Source of the DNA: Eubacteriales Family XIII. Incertae Sedis bacterium
GTDB taxonomy: Bacteria > Bacillota > Clostridia > Peptostreptococcales > Anaerovoracaceae
Assembly: GCA_031290775.1 (NCBI GenBank)
Contig: JAITMX010000172.1
Coordinates: 1-33,657, forward strand
Direction: 5' to 3'
Length of the DNA: 33,657 nt
The translations under genes and the position numbers were made by a program. The notes beneath the pieces are model-generated. The model saw only the letters and a program-made list of their open reading frames with translations, was not told the DNA's origin and did not search any database. Shown one piece after another: positions 9,054 through 33,657 of the stretch. Each line of letters begins with the position of its first letter. Within the stretch, counting starts at the first letter, position 1.

Positions 9054-10892
9054 TTATGCCCTGGTTATTTTGATGTGCTTGCGGATCGTTTCGGCGACCT
9101 GGTCAGGGTCGAGCGGCTTGGAGATATGCGCGTTCATACCGGCCCTTTTTGCTTTCTCGATGTCTTCACGGAACACATTTGCCGTCATGGCGATGATCGG
9201 GATGCCGGCGGCGCGCGGCAATCCGCTTGCACGGATTTGCCGCGTCGCTTCGTAACCGTCCATCACGGGCATCTGGATATCCATGAAGACCGCGTCGTAT
9301 TTTTCCGGGTTCGCAAGGAACGCCTCGACGCCTTCCTTGCCGTTATCCGCCATTTCAACGTTTGCGCCCATCTGCCCGAACATATTTTCGGCAATCATCT
9401 GGTTGATGTCGTTGTCTTCGACGAGCAGGAACAGTTTGCCTCTGCAATCCGGCCTGGTCTTGCTGCCCTTGTCTGTAATCAGCGTGCCGAGGGCGGTGTG
9501 TTCGCCGTCGTTTGCAGCGTTTTGCGACGCGTCCGCCCGGATATCAAAGATAAAGCTGCTGCCCTTCCCCGGCGTGCTTTCGACACGGATCGTGCCGTCC
9601 ATCAGCTCAACGAGCAGTTTTGAAATGGTCAGGCCAAGGCCCGTGCCGCCGTATTTGCGCATCGTGCTGCCATCTTCCTGCTCAAAAGGCTCGAAGAGCT
9701 TTTGGATGTTTTCCGGCGCAATCCCGATCCCTGTATCCCGTACGGAAAACTCGAGCCGCAAATGCTCCTGGCCTTGCCCGATCATTTTCGCGGACAAGGT
9801 GATGACGCCCTCCTCAGGCGTGAATTTCACCGCGTTTCCGAGCAGATTCATGAAAATCTGCGTCAGGTGCGTGCTGTCGCCCATGATGTATTGAGGCACG
9901 GCGCCGTCGATCTCAAATTTCAGATCGATATGCTTGCTCTCCGTCTGCGGCGCGATCATCGTATGGACGCCCGACAGCAGCTGCTGCAAATCGACATCGA
10001 TGTTTTCAAGCGCCATATGGCCGGCCTCGATTTTGGATATATCGAGAATATTGTTGATGAGCGAGAGCATATAGGACGAGCTTGATATGATGTTTTCGTT
10101 GTACGCGTGTATCTCGTCGATATCCCTCGAATCCCGGCCCATGCGCGAGAGGCCGATGATGGCGTTCATCGGCGTGCGTATTTCGTGGCTCATGCGCGAC
10201 AGGAAGTCGGTTTTCGCCATCGATGCCGCAAAGTACTCAGCGGCGCGCCTGCGCATGATGAAGATCAAGAGGATGCTGACCAGGATGACGGCTGCGAGCA
10301 GGACGACGAGCGCAACACTGATTCTCTGGTTTTGCCGGGTCACGCTGACCATGACATCGTCCCCGATATCCACGCAGGCGACCGCGTAAAGCTCCCCGTC
10401 GTTGTTGTACATCGGCGCGTAGGCCGACATGAGGCCCTCCCAGACGCCCGCGTAGTTGCCCATGACCGTGCTGACCGCCTCGCCGGCAAAGGTATGCATG
10501 ATATAGCCGTCCGGCTCCGTGACTTCGCCGACTTCGACGGGAAACTCGATGTCGTTGTCGGCAATATAGGTGTAGTCGTCGCCGGCCATACGCATATAAT
10601 AGGCAAATACGACGTCGTTGTACTCCGCAAATTCAAAGAGTTTTTCGCGCACCGCCGCGTAAGTCGCCGATTCGGCGTCCGCAGGCGTTCTGAGTTGGTC
10701 CAATTCTTCTTCCGTCACGAGCGCCGCGAGCGATTTTGCCGTCTGGATGAGGCGGTCGGAAACGTTTTCCTGCAGCATTTGGGTGTATTGGTTCATATAG
10801 ACGCGCGAAAACGCCGCCGTGAGAAACACGCCCGCCACAAGGACGATAAAAACAATGAATAGGACTCTCTCTTTTTCGATACTGGTTTTCAT
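9054..10892 (-). CDS. Membrane hybrid histidine kinase (Cache-like extracellular domain, HisKA, HATPase, REC)
   Basis: TM-bounded N-terminal region, H-box [20 protein letters not shown] boxes, REC domain [10 protein letters not shown]...[17 protein letters not shown]. Start set at [10 protein letters not shown] (10892). Confidence 0.93.
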
Positions 10893-28267: not shown

Positions 28268-29791
28268 TTAGTCTTCTTCGCGATGGCCGACTTTTTCGAT
28301 TGTGTCAGGATCCTGCAGATACAGGATCGCGCCTTGTTCGACCAAGACCTTTTGAAGCTCCTCGTGGTCGTTTTCGAGATCGCGCGGCGTCTTGCCTGTC
28401 TTGGCGCAGATTGCCGCCGCCACGCCGGCCGCCTGGCCGGTGACCATCGTCTGTTGGATGTAGCGCAGGTAAACGGCGCTGTCGGCCGAGACATGCTTGC
28501 CCGCCGCGAGCAGGTTTTCGACCTTTTGCGGCACGAGGATGCGGTAGGGCAGGTCATAGGAACCATGGTGATGCGGCCATTTTTCGAGCGTCTTGCCGCT
28601 CTTGATCACATTCAGCGTGTCCATGCTCGCGACGTGCTGGCTGTCCGCGATGAAGTTGCTCTTGCCGATGACGTCCGGATGCAGCCGCGCCTCGATGACG
28701 TCTTCGCGCCTGAAAGTATAGTCGCCCACGATCCGGGGGCCTTCGCGCAGGCGCAATTCGGTCGCGACTTTCGTGATGTAGGAGTTTTCAAATCCCGGCA
28801 CATAATTTTTGAAGAAACGCCACGCGATTTTGTTTTGGCGCCGGCACTCGCGGATTGCGTGCGTGATATGCCACGCGCTCGTTGGGGGGCAGTCGCTGAC
28901 CTGCGAGCTGTGCTGCAGGTGCGCGACGATATGCGCGCCTTCCTTTGGCGTGAAAAAGACGCCCGCCCCCGAGTGGGGGTGCCAGTCGCCGTTTTCAAGC
29001 GCCGCGTCGCGGAGCTCGTAAAAGCCAACAATCTCGCCGACCTGCTTGATATCGGTCAGGTTTGCGTAAAATTCGCGAATCCGTTCCTTTGTGTTGCCGA
29101 CCGAATCGTTTTGGATCTCGCGCCAACTGAATTGCTTTGGATTGTGGCGCACATACATCAGGAAGCGGTCCCAGTCGACGCCGTCGACGGAAAACGCGAG
29201 CGAATGGGGCGGGAAGCCCTCCTCGTCGAGCATGACGGTCTCTACGCCGGCTTTGGCCGACAGATAGGCTTCGCCCGTGCAGTCGATGACGACTTTGCCG
29301 CGGATTTCCACGCGGCCGTCCGCATTCTCGACGACGACGCCTTTGATCGTGTCGCCGTCCATGACCGCATCCACCACGAGCGTGTCAAGCAGCAGATCGA
29401 CATTTTCCTCGTCCATCATGTCAAAGACAAGCTGCGTCCACCAGTCGGGGTCAACGTAAGCAAAAGTGTAGCCGGAATTGGCGCGCACTTCGGGGAGATA
29501 GTGCGGAAGCGCGTGCCCGGTTTCAAAAAGTTTGCGGTAGGTTTCCCAGGCAAAGCCGCCTACGTCGCGCTGCCCGCGCGAATTGCGCAGGAAAGCGTAG
29601 CAAAACCCGGCCGGGCCGCTGACGGAAAACTGCCCGCCGAGGCAGCCTGTCCGCTCGATCAAAAGCACTTTGGCGCCCGCGCGCGCGGCCGCGATCGCCG
29701 CCGGTATGCCCGAGGTGCCGCCGCCCGCGACGATGACGTCGTACAGCCGCCCGTAATCGCCGTAATCTTCTTTTCTGCCTACAACTCCCAT
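28268..29791 (-). CDS. FAD-dependent oxidoreductase (FAD_oxidored-type)
   Basis: N-terminal DVIVAGGGTSGIPAAIAAARAGAKVLLIERTGCLGGQFSVSG; C-terminal NLLAAGKHVSADSAVYLRYIQQTMVTGQAAGVAAAI; SD aaaggag before ATG 29791. Confidence 0.9.
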   Translation of the reverse strand: MGVVGRKEDYGDYGRLYDVIVAGGGTSGIPAAIAAARAGAKVLLIERTGCLGGQFSVSGPAGFCYAFLRNSRGQRDVGGFAWETYRKLFETGHALPHYLPEVRANSGYTFAYVDPDWWTQLVFDMMDEENVDLLLDTLVVDAVMDGDTIKGVVVENADGRVEIRGKVVIDCTGEAYLSAKAGVETVMLDEEGFPPHSLAFSVDGVDWDRFLMYVRHNPKQFSWREIQNDSVGNTKERIREFYANLTDIKQVGEIVGFYELRDAALENGDWHPHSGAGVFFTPKEGAHIVAHLQHSSQVSDCPPTSAWHITHAIRECRRQNKIAWRFFKNYVPGFENSYITKVATELRLREGPRIVGDYTFRREDVIEARLHPDVIGKSNFIADSQHVASMDTLNVIKSGKTLEKWPHHHGSYDLPYRILVPQKVENLLAAGKHVSADSAVYLRYIQQTMVTGQAAGVAAAICAKTGKTPRDLENDHEELQKVLVEQGAILYLQDPDTIEKVGHREED

Positions 29792-29886: not shown

Positions 29887-31593
29887 TTATTTGGCCTTAA
29901 AATCTTCGATGCTCTTTGCAATCGTCCCATCCGCAAGCGCGACCGGCTCCACGATGCCTTCGCTGTGCAGCGCCCACGGCAGGATGACGCCGGAGTGCCC
30001 GCCGCGGCCGCCGATCGTGACAATCTCGACATCCTTGGGGAAACGCGTGACCGGCATCGGGTGCTTGTTGGCAAAGCTCGCCGGGCGCACGGGCACGAGG
30101 CCGCGATCCCGCACCATCGGCACCTGATGGTAGACATAGGTGTGGATGTGCTCCTGGATCATTTCTTTCGTATAGCCGGCTTTCTTGAGCATCATCGCGT
30201 GGTCGGGCGTGAGGCAGATGACCATCGGGCCCGGCATATACGCGTTGTTGCTTCCGAGCGTCGTGCAGCAGGCCGTAATCGTGTCGAGCAAGTCATAGCC
30301 GTCGAGCGACAGGAAGTCGATGATGTCATGGAGCGGCTCGGCTTTGAGGACGTAGACCGTCGTCGTGCCCTTGTCGAAATGGTCTTCGTTGATCATATTC
30401 CACTGGGCGAGATCGGGCTCCTCCGCGAAGCAGAATGTGAACTCCGCCTGGCTCGCGATGCAGTCGAGGTCGCAGATGCCGGGGACGCTGCGGAAGACGT
30501 TCATGATGATGAGGTTGAGCGCGCGCCCGATCGTGGCGTTTTGCGGCCAGCCCGGGCCTTGGCAGCCCTGTTTGCCCGAGATGCCGATCTCCTGCGCGAT
30601 CGGGCCGGAGACGATGACGAGCGTGCCGCCCGGGTGTGAGGTCGTGACGCTCTGGTTGAGATTGTAGAGTTTGTTGTTCATCGCTTTGCACGCGGCGATG
30701 ATGATGGGCATGGCGTTGGGCTTGCAGCCTGCCATGACCGCCGCGATGGCCGCGTCCTTCACGGTGACTTCTTTGCCCGACGGCCCCGATGGGTTGCAGA
30801 GCCTGTAGCCTTCCGGGAAAGGCGCATAGGCCAGCATCTTTTCATAACGCGCGCGCGTCGGCGGGATGATGGGCAGCCCGTCGCTGATGTGCTCGGCGTT
30901 GAAGTAGTCGCAGACTTCCTCAAGATAGGCGCCCGGCTCAAGCAGCGCGCTTTCGTCGGCCTCGAGGACAAAAGGCAGCAGCCCGTCCTCCCGCGGCGGC
31001 ACTTTGTCCATCTTGAAGTCGATGTGCGCGAGCTTCGCAAGCGCGTCGCCGTTTGACGTCAGGGAGCCGATGATGTAATCCCACTGTTTGTCGACTTCGG
31101 CGGCGACTTCAAAGGCCGTGCTCGCCTGATAGACATCGAGCGAGCAGAGGCAGAGCTGGCCCGCGCGGTAGACGCCGACGCCCTCCGTGATGCCCGATCC
31201 GGGAGGGGCCGTCATATAGACGGCGGGGACTCCGAGCTTTTCGAGCTCGATCGTGAGGACGGTCGTGGACGAGGACGTGCCCATATCGCCAAAGGCCGTG
31301 ATTGCCGCGACGGGCTCTTCCTTGGCCAGCATGGCCGCGTAGTCCGCCAGCATTTTGGCGTCTTTGCCGCGCACCGTTTCCGTGTACTCGACCCAGTTTG
31401 TGGCGCCGATCTCGGCGAGGCGCTCCTTGATGCGGTCAAAGACCGTCATGTAATTGACAAAGCCCAGCTTCGTGTTGTTGTAAAACAGGATTTTGCCTTT
31501 TTTCAATTCGTCTAATGAGGGACGGTGCGCCAGCGTAATCGTCTGGCGATCTTGGATACCGCGCGGATCCAGCAGAGCATTGAGTTTTGCCAT
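29887..31593 (-). CDS. UGSC-like N-terminal domain fused to a UGSC-associated C-terminal domain
   Basis: N-terminal ILFYNNTKLGF...AAITAFGDMGTSSSTTVLTIELEKLGVPAVYMTAPPG resembles the (C/U)GSC family core; C-terminal SDGLPIIPPT...AVMAGCKPNAMPIIIAACKAM...GGTLVIVSGPIAQEIGISGKQGCQGPGWPQNATIGRALNLIIMNV...FTFCFAEE. SD aggag before ATG 31593. Confidence 0.72.
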   Translation of the reverse strand: MAKLNALLDPRGIQDRQTITLAHRPSLDELKKGKILFYNNTKLGFVNYMTVFDRIKERLAEIGATNWVEYTETVRGKDAKMLADYAAMLAKEEPVAAITAFGDMGTSSSTTVLTIELEKLGVPAVYMTAPPGSGITEGVGVYRAGQLCLCSLDVYQASTAFEVAAEVDKQWDYIIGSLTSNGDALAKLAHIDFKMDKVPPREDGLLPFVLEADESALLEPGAYLEEVCDYFNAEHISDGLPIIPPTRARYEKMLAYAPFPEGYRLCNPSGPSGKEVTVKDAAIAAVMAGCKPNAMPIIIAACKAMNNKLYNLNQSVTTSHPGGTLVIVSGPIAQEIGISGKQGCQGPGWPQNATIGRALNLIIMNVFRSVPGICDLDCIASQAEFTFCFAEEPDLAQWNMINEDHFDKGTTTVYVLKAEPLHDIIDFLSLDGYDLLDTITACCTTLGSNNAYMPGPMVICLTPDHAMMLKKAGYTKEMIQEHIHTYVYHQVPMVRDRGLVPVRPASFANKHPMPVTRFPKDVEIVTIGGRGGHSGVILPWALHSEGIVEPVALADGTIAKSIEDFKAK

Positions 31594-31672
31594 ATTCAAC
31601 TTCTCCTTCTTTCGCTCAACCATATTTTGCGCACTTTGAAACCGCGCACAGACTATAAACATATATAATGCC

Positions 31673-31701
31673 ATTTTCGTGAACACGGGCCAAACTGTCA
31701 A
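31673..31701 (-). promoter_or_regulatory. Putative promoter of the UGSC-fusion gene
   Basis: On the minus strand: TTGACA (31701-31696), 17-bp spacer, GAAAAT (31678-31673); flanked by TGCCATT / AATGGCA. Confidence 0.5.
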
Positions 31702-31783
31702 TGGCAATCGGGGATTTGTCATTTTTAAGCGATTGACATTCGATTGACACTTGCCGCCCGCAAGCCGATAAGGGGGGCGGCCG

Positions 31784-33280
31784 TCACGCGTCAAGCAGGA
31801 GCTGCACTTGCTGCCGGATATATTCCTTGTTTTTCAAAAGCGGCGGGATTCCGTTCCAAACGGATTTGATGTGCTCCATGACAGCGACCACAAAAATCAT
31901 TTCGCGCAGGACGAGGACAAAAGGGCGTTCCGATTTTGTGCCGATGAACTGCACGCCCGTGTTTTCCTGCGCCATGACAAGGATGTCTTCAAACGCGTCC
32001 GTCTCCCCCCCGCCGATCATTCCGGTTTCGATCGTGTCGATATCAAGCATCAGGCCAAACGTTTCGCGGATGACCTCGCGGTAGACCTCGTTGCTGACGG
32101 AGATTCTGCGCCCGATCAGGTAGGTCAGGATGTGCAATTCGACCTCATCCTGGGAAAGGCTCTGTTTGAGCGCCCGGAGGTTGAAGATGTACCGGTTGCG
32201 GGTGCTGATGCTGATCCGCGAAAAGCGGGCGTACATTTCGCGGTATTTGGCGATCTCGTCTGCGGCGAGCCCGTTTTGCATGAGGATGCTGCCGGTGAGC
32301 CCGTCCGACATCGGGACATAGAGCAGGGCCGGCCCATGGAAGTAGCGCGTGTTGCGCATGGAGATCATGCCGGAAAACTCGTTGAGGTATTGCTTGCCGG
32401 AGTCGACATAGTACCGCTTGAATACCGGCCGTGCGCGGTTGAGGTTTTCCTGGATGATTTTTTCGATGTTGGACAAGACGTGCCGGTCGTTTGTGATCCA
32501 TGTGTCGAGCCGTTTTGTATAGGTCCGCGATGACGCGCCGATCAGCGCAAGATGCCCGGGTATCAATATGTACGTATAGACGACGGGGTCGTCGACATAG
32601 TTGGGTATGAAATAATCGACCGTGTGGCCGGTCAGATGGATGGGGAGCCATTTGATGAAAGATTTGGCCATTTCCTCGTAGCTTCGGTTGACGGGGTGGA
32701 CGATCTTGACGATATGCCCGGTCTTTGCGACGATGCGCATATATTTCTCCGACCAAGTCTCCGAGAAGGCTTCGTCTTCGTAAAACCACGCGCCGTCCTC
32801 GGCGGAAAAAGAGATGAGCTCGAGCGACTCCGTTTGCCGCAGGGCGTAGTCGTTGAAGAAATCGATCGCCGCCCTGCGCCCGCTGTTTTTGCGGAAGTGG
32901 TAGGAGATTGCGACATCTACGTCGGGGTTGTTTTCCAGTGGGGCAAAAATATCGTCCCGGCTGCCCGCGTCTGTATCCGCAAGCCATTTTTTCAAGTATA
33001 CGGCGATCTCCGCTTCGGGCGCGCCGGCAATCTCTTTGTAATACGCGGAGAGGAGTTTTTTGATTTTTGAAAAATTGTCCGGCCGGCCGATCGAGAGAAA
33101 ATAATCCGCGATCTTCTCGGCCGAAGCGGAGCCGGCCTTGAGCGCGCGTTTGCCGTTGCGCCATTTGCTGATCAGCGCCTCGTCTACATGAATGATCTTG
33201 GACAAATCTTTCCCTGAAACCTCAAAGGCTTTCAGAAGCAGATCCAGCCGCCCGCGGGCATTCCATTCCTTGTCGTTCAT
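31784..33280 (-). CDS. Large HTH (Cro/C1-type-like) regulator with uncharacterised C-terminal region of about 430 aa
   Basis: N-terminal GRLDLLLKAFEVSGKDLSKIIHVDEALISKWRNGKRALK matches an XRE-like HTH; the rest has no domain I recognise. Confidence 0.75.
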   Translation of the reverse strand: MNDKEWNARGRLDLLLKAFEVSGKDLSKIIHVDEALISKWRNGKRALKAGSASAEKIADYFLSIGRPDNFSKIKKLLSAYYKEIAGAPEAEIAVYLKKWLADTDAGSRDDIFAPLENNPDVDVAISYHFRKNSGRRAAIDFFNDYALRQTESLELISFSAEDGAWFYEDEAFSETWSEKYMRIVAKTGHIVKIVHPVNRSYEEMAKSFIKWLPIHLTGHTVDYFIPNYVDDPVVYTYILIPGHLALIGASSRTYTKRLDTWITNDRHVLSNIEKIIQENLNRARPVFKRYYVDSGKQYLNEFSGMISMRNTRYFHGPALLYVPMSDGLTGSILMQNGLAADEIAKYREMYARFSRISISTRNRYIFNLRALKQSLSQDEVELHILTYLIGRRISVSNEVYREVIRETFGLMLDIDTIETGMIGGGETDAFEDILVMAQENTGVQFIGTKSERPFVLVLREMIFVVAVMEHIKSVWNGIPPLLKNKEYIRQQVQLLLDA

Positions 33281-33286
33281 GAAACG

Positions 33287-33316
33287 ATTGTACCATTATC
33301 AAAATGGCACTGTCAA
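33287..33316 (-). promoter_or_regulatory. Near-consensus sigma-70/A promoter abutting the regulator ATG
   Basis: Minus strand: TTGACA-(18 bp)-TACAAT with TGG extended -10; first base after the -7..-1 interval is the A of ATG 33280. Confidence 0.8.
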
Positions 33317-33366
33317 AATACGAGTCAAAAAATACGAGCCGTCAGAACCGTCGGGTCGGACAGGAC

Positions 33367-33540
33367 AAACGCATCAATTTTTATCCGATGTTGTTGTACC
33401 TGTTGTCATTCCGGGCTTGACCCGGAATCCAGATGATTTAGATGTCACCAAAAGTGATTAGAAACTGGATTCCGGCTCGTAGGCCGGAATGACTGTATTA
33501 TCAATCGATTTTCTTATACTGCCAATAAATTGATGCGTTT
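33367..33540. repeat. MITE-like element with 14-bp perfect TIRs and an internal GTCATTCCGG...CCGGAATGAC palindrome
   Basis: AAACGCATCAATTT (33367-33380) and AAATTGATGCGTTT (33527-33540); inner arms 33405-33432 and 33465-33493. Confidence 0.8.
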
Positions 33541-33641
33541 GTAACTGTTCAGACTTGCCTCGTCATTGCGAGCGAAGCGAAGCAATCCAGTGGATAATGG
33601 ATTGCCGCGGTCGCTACGCTCCCTCGCAATGACGGGCAATT
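33537..33641. repeat. MITE-like element copy B (inverted orientation relative to copy A; may run to the window edge)
   Basis: 74-bp core 33561-33634 is the reverse complement of 17401-17474 with one mismatch; preceded by TTTGTAACTGTTCAGAC resembling copy A's TIR. Confidence 0.88.
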
Positions 33642-33657
33642 GGCTTGCAATAGCACG

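Follow-up and report, generated by a model that had tools for sequence, protein, structure and literature searches.

A putative Cro/CI-like regulator gene with a predicted leaderless mRNA, one likely case of a class of AUG-only leaderless genes in Clostridia

The mRNA of a putative Cro/CI-like regulator gene from a 2.3 Mb Clostridia assembly of 211 contigs is very likely leaderless and would be one example of an AUG-only leaderless class that is found across the lineage. The gene is located in the window, by which we mean the whole stretch of 33,657 nucleotides that was analyzed. A housekeeping sigma-factor promoter consisting of TTGACA, an 18-bp spacer with TG and TACAAT would drive it, and transcription is predicted to start on the A of the regulator ATG or no more than 1-2 nt away. 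Because of this start point the mRNA would lack a leader, and the ribosome would initiate directly on the 5'-terminal AUG without a Shine-Dalgarno (SD) sequence. Leaderless mRNAs are translated by a 70S or IF2-dependent mechanism, which would then also apply to the regulator mRNA. Dyads in two promoters, that of the regulator gene itself and that of the neighboring UGSC/oxidoreductase genes, are probable binding sites of the regulator protein. The predicted promoter, its spacing, the absence of an SD, the membership in the class and the start position are all supported by sequence statistics.

Direct reading of the minus strand from 33316 to 33278 gives TTGACA, 18 bp ending in TGG, TACAAT, 6 nt and ATG, exactly the order of -35 element, spacer, extended -10 element, CGTTTC and start codon that the initial annotation had described. 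The individual elements are as follows:

31784 to 33280, minus strand: ORF of the 498-aa regulator with an N-terminal Cro/CI-like HTH (weak match) and the predicted leaderless start ATG at 33280-33278
33311 to 33316, minus strand: -35 element TTGACA, 6/6 match
33293 to 33310, minus strand: 18-bp spacer with TGG at its end (extended -10 TG at 33295-33294), from sequence reading and promoter scan
33287 to 33292, minus strand: -10 element TACAAT, 5/6 match to TATAAT; TACAAT is also found 6 nt before the start of other genes of the genome
33281 to 33286, minus strand: 6-nt discriminator CGTTTC, placing +1 on the A of the ATG with a pyrimidine at -1, at the spacing where the genome-wide peak lies

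With 11/12 matches plus the TG, this promoter is the best among five promoter-like sites reported by the scanner for the final 5.7 kb of the window, where shuffles led us to expect 2.4. An SD was looked for 5' of the ATG at 33280 and none was found, in agreement with the initial annotation. An in-frame stop five codons upstream makes an earlier start impossible, and further in-frame codons resembling a start do not appear until TTG at codon 26 and TTG at codon 96, inside or beyond the HTH. Since the alignment to the closest relative (L114, 50% identity) begins at residue 3, the ATG at 33280 is very probably the true start. No base pairing is predicted for the initial 21 nt of the mRNA, and an Rfam search of the window returned zero RNA elements, so no known structured leader or riboswitch is involved.

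Statistics on the host genome were obtained from 873 kb of the assembly (57% GC), using simple long ORFs as gene calls without a trained gene finder, and the distance of 6 nt was set by the earlier finding before counting. For 68 strong sigma-70-like sites, the next ORF start was an ATG exactly 6 nt past the -10 box in six cases, compared to 0-2 ATGs at any other distance. A -10 box was located exactly 6 bp 5' of 33 candidate ATG starts versus approximately 7 at other distances, and neither GTG nor TTG starts showed an excess at 6 nt (3 and 4, respectively). Using the loose definition TANNNT, we counted 43 boxes at 6 nt versus 13.9 (P 3e-10). Relative to the 658 called genes, the surplus of 29 corresponds to about 4%. 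Several -10 definitions were tried, of which the stricter ones all peak at 6 nt, and with the loosest ones (NANNNT, TNNNNT) a peak at this distance was not resolved. Two independent marks point the same way: the ATGs at 6 nt rarely follow an SD (4/33 versus 167/313, P 4e-6) and mostly have a pyrimidine at -1 (29/33 versus 159/313 elsewhere, P 3e-5), both as expected if the A is the transcription start. Plain A+T-richness as the cause of the 6-nt signal was ruled out by the GTG/TTG control and by an N10 spacing control.

Among the 33 ATGs, roughly a fifth of which are expected by chance and fewer if a perfect -35 is also demanded, are those of RuvC, Obg, MurB, MiaB, alanine racemase and an iron-dependent repressor, as well as those of LacI and LysR regulators, a sigma-54 activator and transporters. 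Several of them lie at the expected N-termini (Obg, RuvC, MurB, MiaB and the iron-dependent repressor), with Obg beginning at its textbook N-terminus, MFVDKATIVIKSGKGGDGAV. A few matches far inside an ORF, such as the one in 9054-10589 of the window, are probably background. Dozens of genes of the host, housekeeping genes among them, appear to be leaderless like the regulator, and the initial proposal that +1 falls on the A of its start codon is well supported by these genome-wide and the following comparative statistics.

For ruvC, three genomes of the own genus (the host genome G000 as well as G001 and G002) have a TTGACA and, downstream of it, a -10 box at exactly 6 nt from the ATG, and so do G201 (g77) and G371 and G372 (g110). 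The tail between the ATG and the conserved ILG(I/V)DPG of RuvC varies in length across orthologues; therefore the 6-bp spacing tracks the start codon and not the protein. The ruvC box at 6 nt is absent from G003 of the same genus and from several other genera, and G370 has only a 4/6 match. For obg, the box is found at 6 nt in G000 and G003, at 5 nt in G201 and at 9 nt in G001, and an SD is present in most other genera. Together, the ruvC and obg patterns indicate that a gene can differ in its predicted leaderless state between genomes even of the same genus. Over the -35 element of leaderless ruvC we also observed GAACAAATGTTTGACA or a similar sequence in L278, L279, L281, L282, L289 and L290, an element which we take to resemble a Firmicutes LexA box.

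Counting TGNTAYAMT-N6-ATG against an N10 control, which was picked after inspection of the spacing profile of G000, resulted in 103:18 for the own genus, where the share of G000 is favored because 17 -10 patterns had been tried on this genome before TGNTAYAMT was picked. The other genomes are not affected by this choice, and without G000 the ratio is 76:15. In 46 genomes from other families of the order and class we obtained 611:777. Inside the family, the counts were 86:18 for g71, 107:25 for g110, 155:61 for six other high genomes and 40:68 for eleven low genomes, groups that were chosen after the N6 counts were seen, so that the ratios carry a selection bias and tell us no more than that the genera are different. 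Judged by these motif counts, the leaderless signature is about fivefold enriched in the own genus and in some related genera and not enriched in the sampled genomes of other families. The pattern is also enriched in G378, a 0.9 Mb genome of the same class outside the family of the window, with 13 occurrences at N6 and 2 at N10.

Of 351 genomes from the bacterial family, 51 contain a relative of the regulator, as do 35 of the 391 genomes in the class sample; none was found in the same-genus genomes G001-G003 or in named genomes. In the profile search, the HTH of the regulator matched HTH_26 with an E-value of 0.17, below the cut-off, and at E 0.01 HTH_3 matches six and HTH_26 two of 20 family members. 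A profile search of solved structures likewise gave only weak HTH matches, and the large C-terminal part matched no characterized fold. Starts were compared for the window gene and 29 homologues with clear starts, excluding ambiguous ones such as L015, which has no evident SD. An SD-like match was scored in 26 of the 29, some matches comprising only four bases, and in the remaining three the script had set the start too early, with actual starts preceded by GGAGGG (L125) or GAGGTG (L130 and L143). A -10 box at 6 nt was found in 0 of the 29 homologues. L114 is not leaderless either, as its start lies just after an aminopeptidase gene; a weak GGTG overlaps the end of this upstream gene, to which L114 looks translationally coupled. 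The promoter is therefore not conserved between the regulator gene and L114, and leaderlessness is not a trait of the protein family.

The surroundings of the regulator gene contain the following neighboring genes, repeat element and candidate operators:

28268 to 29791, minus strand: FAD-dependent oxidoreductase (PF12831), SD-led (GAAAGGAG)
29887 to 31593, minus strand: UGSC-like protein (PF24696), SD-led (AAGGAG at 31608-31603, 9 nt to the ATG) in contrast to the leaderless regulator
31671 to 31706, minus strand: half-sites TGCCATT-N24-AATGG(CA) lying over the promoter that is predicted for the downstream gene (TTGACA at 31701-31696)
33293 to 33309, minus strand: imperfect dyad TGCCATT-TTGAT-AATGG, a candidate operator between the -35 and -10 elements of the regulator promoter
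33365 to 33542, no strand assigned: MITE-like element carrying perfect terminal inverted repeats of 16 bp, ending 48 bp upstream of the regulator -35

The UGSC-like protein of about 568 aa greatly exceeds the UGSC (seleno)protein model in length and scores below its NCBIfam cut-off; its gene adjoins those of the FAD oxidoreductase and an Fe-ADH. For part of the MITE-like element, a 93% copy is present at another place in the genome, and a second repeat upstream of the regulator promoter (about 33539-33655) occurs at approximately 40 places in the genome, often at contig ends.

Taken alone, the dyad in the promoter spacer is at chance level, since a 5-bp dyad is present in 17% of 36-bp genomic stretches. 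The dyads of the window account for three of nine genome matches (both strands) to TGCCATT-N0-30-AATGG, and the recurrence of TGCCATT/AATGG at both promoters is a suggestive operator hint only, because the search word came from the locus itself. Approximately 40-60 bp upstream of their start, many homologues have a dyad, for example TTTCTGGCACGAATCGTGCCAGAAA or CGGTCTGACAGGAATCCTGTCAAACCG, which suggests autoregulation in the regulator family and makes autoregulation of the window regulator plausible. A recurrent dyad near TGNCAYGAWTCRTGNCA precedes the homologues L120, L126, L130, L131, L133, L135 and L155, and a dyad of this kind is likely to be the family operator. Elsewhere, an ApbE-like gene (L077:11455-12516) and a sigma-54 activator gene (L112:1057-3120) are leaderless candidates with TTGACAATGGCA at the -35. 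This sequence has AATGGCA in common with the window half-site, and both genes are possible regulon members.

A different origin of the regulator mRNA was considered as well. It might be part of a longer transcript from an upstream promoter, with the ATG used by SD-independent (unstructured or S1-type) initiation and the close promoter being secondary or inactive. A second promoter-like site, TTGGCA-17-GATAAT at 33525-33497, read-through that may come from beyond the contig end at 33657, and the 50% orthologue, which follows another gene with which it probably shares a transcript, would fit such an arrangement. However, the upstream site lies inside a repeat element and reaches only a 10/12 match without TG, whereas no site in the region scores higher than the close promoter, to which the genome-wide leaderless class lends credibility, so we regard the longer transcript as rather unlikely. 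We give still less weight, and consider it very unlikely, that the promoter match is a functionless chance occurrence with the true promoter elsewhere. Although about 7 of the 33 matches at 6 nt are background, a perfect -35, an extended -10, a pyrimidine at -1 and an absent SD are all combined at the regulator, and sites this strong were observed six times at 6 nt versus 0-2 times at other distances. Translation from a downstream codon of an mRNA with a short leader is the least probable of these readings and hardly to be expected. The in-frame TTG at codon 26 does have GAGG and an AGGGA-like sequence upstream, but starting there would delete the first helices of the HTH, the orthologue can be aligned from residue 3, and apart from this TTG there is no start-like codon before codon 96.

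The preferred reading, a leaderless regulator mRNA within a larger class, is compatible with an additional purpose, namely leaderlessness as a dedicated device that holds an autorepressor low, as in lambda cI or Rhodobacter AcuR. In favor of this, the regulator is predicted to be leaderless while the genes that follow are SD-led, half-sites occur at both the regulator and the downstream promoters, and the acuR-acuI-dddL precedent combines a similar layout with low acuR translation (PMC3017554). Nevertheless, many housekeeping genes of the host are leaderless too, and we consider a dedicated device doubtful. The lambda cI-like self-limiting device put forward in the initial annotation was not supported as such, as Obg, RuvC, MurB, MiaB, alanine racemase and transporters share the architecture and the regulator homologues with a clear start almost all have an SD-like sequence. 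Because of these homologues, leaderlessness does not qualify as a regulator-specific device. Nothing in the analysis indicates that it limits the regulator level, and a use like that in lambda cI is possible.

The likeness to lambda cI mRNA from PRM would consist of an HTH regulator, an mRNA predicted to start at the AUG and a possible operator at the promoter. Unlike cI, the window regulator has a large C-terminal part of unknown kind and leadered homologues, and its gene belongs to a bacterium in which leaderless initiation at housekeeping genes is predicted to be common. In our assessment AcuR is the closer published parallel: in the acuR-acuI-dddL operon of Rhodobacter sphaeroides, the acuR mRNA was experimentally mapped to start at the AUG (PMC3017554), and in both cases a regulator gene heads a metabolic cluster with SD-led genes next. 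In contrast, AcuR belongs to the TetR family, whereas the window regulator is putatively Cro/CI-like with a predicted start, and the gene following it has its own predicted promoter.

On the level of whole genomes, TA-led or leaderless genes were described for 56 of 209 Firmicutes genomes with an average of 4.2% and up to 16.6% of genes (Zheng et al. 2011, PMC3160421). Our estimate of about 4% is close to this average and thus nothing unusual among Firmicutes that have leaderless genes; features of this kind are already known. The TA-led genes likewise have a TANNNT -10 box about 12 bp before the start codon and no SD, but the host class differs from them in being AUG-only, in its sharp 6-nt spacing and in its enrichment in part of one family only. 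Start-site mapping in Clostridia revealed the same class of transcript but reported it as rare, with 2-3% (PMC9045289), 4%, usually with a second upstream start (PMC5171806), or 15 leaderless genes (PMC7438776).

Taken together, we consider it fairly probable that within one Clostridia family a small number of related genera replaced SD-led by AUG-only leaderless initiation at some of their genes, the core genes ruvC and obg among them. The prediction of gene starts in assemblies of this kind is affected, as a start lacking an SD is easily misplaced. Leaderless genes at core functions beside orthologues that keep their SD allow a within-family comparison of start-signal change. If the shift holds true, the SD state still present in orthologues of other genera of the family would provide a natural series for the evolution of leaderless initiation.
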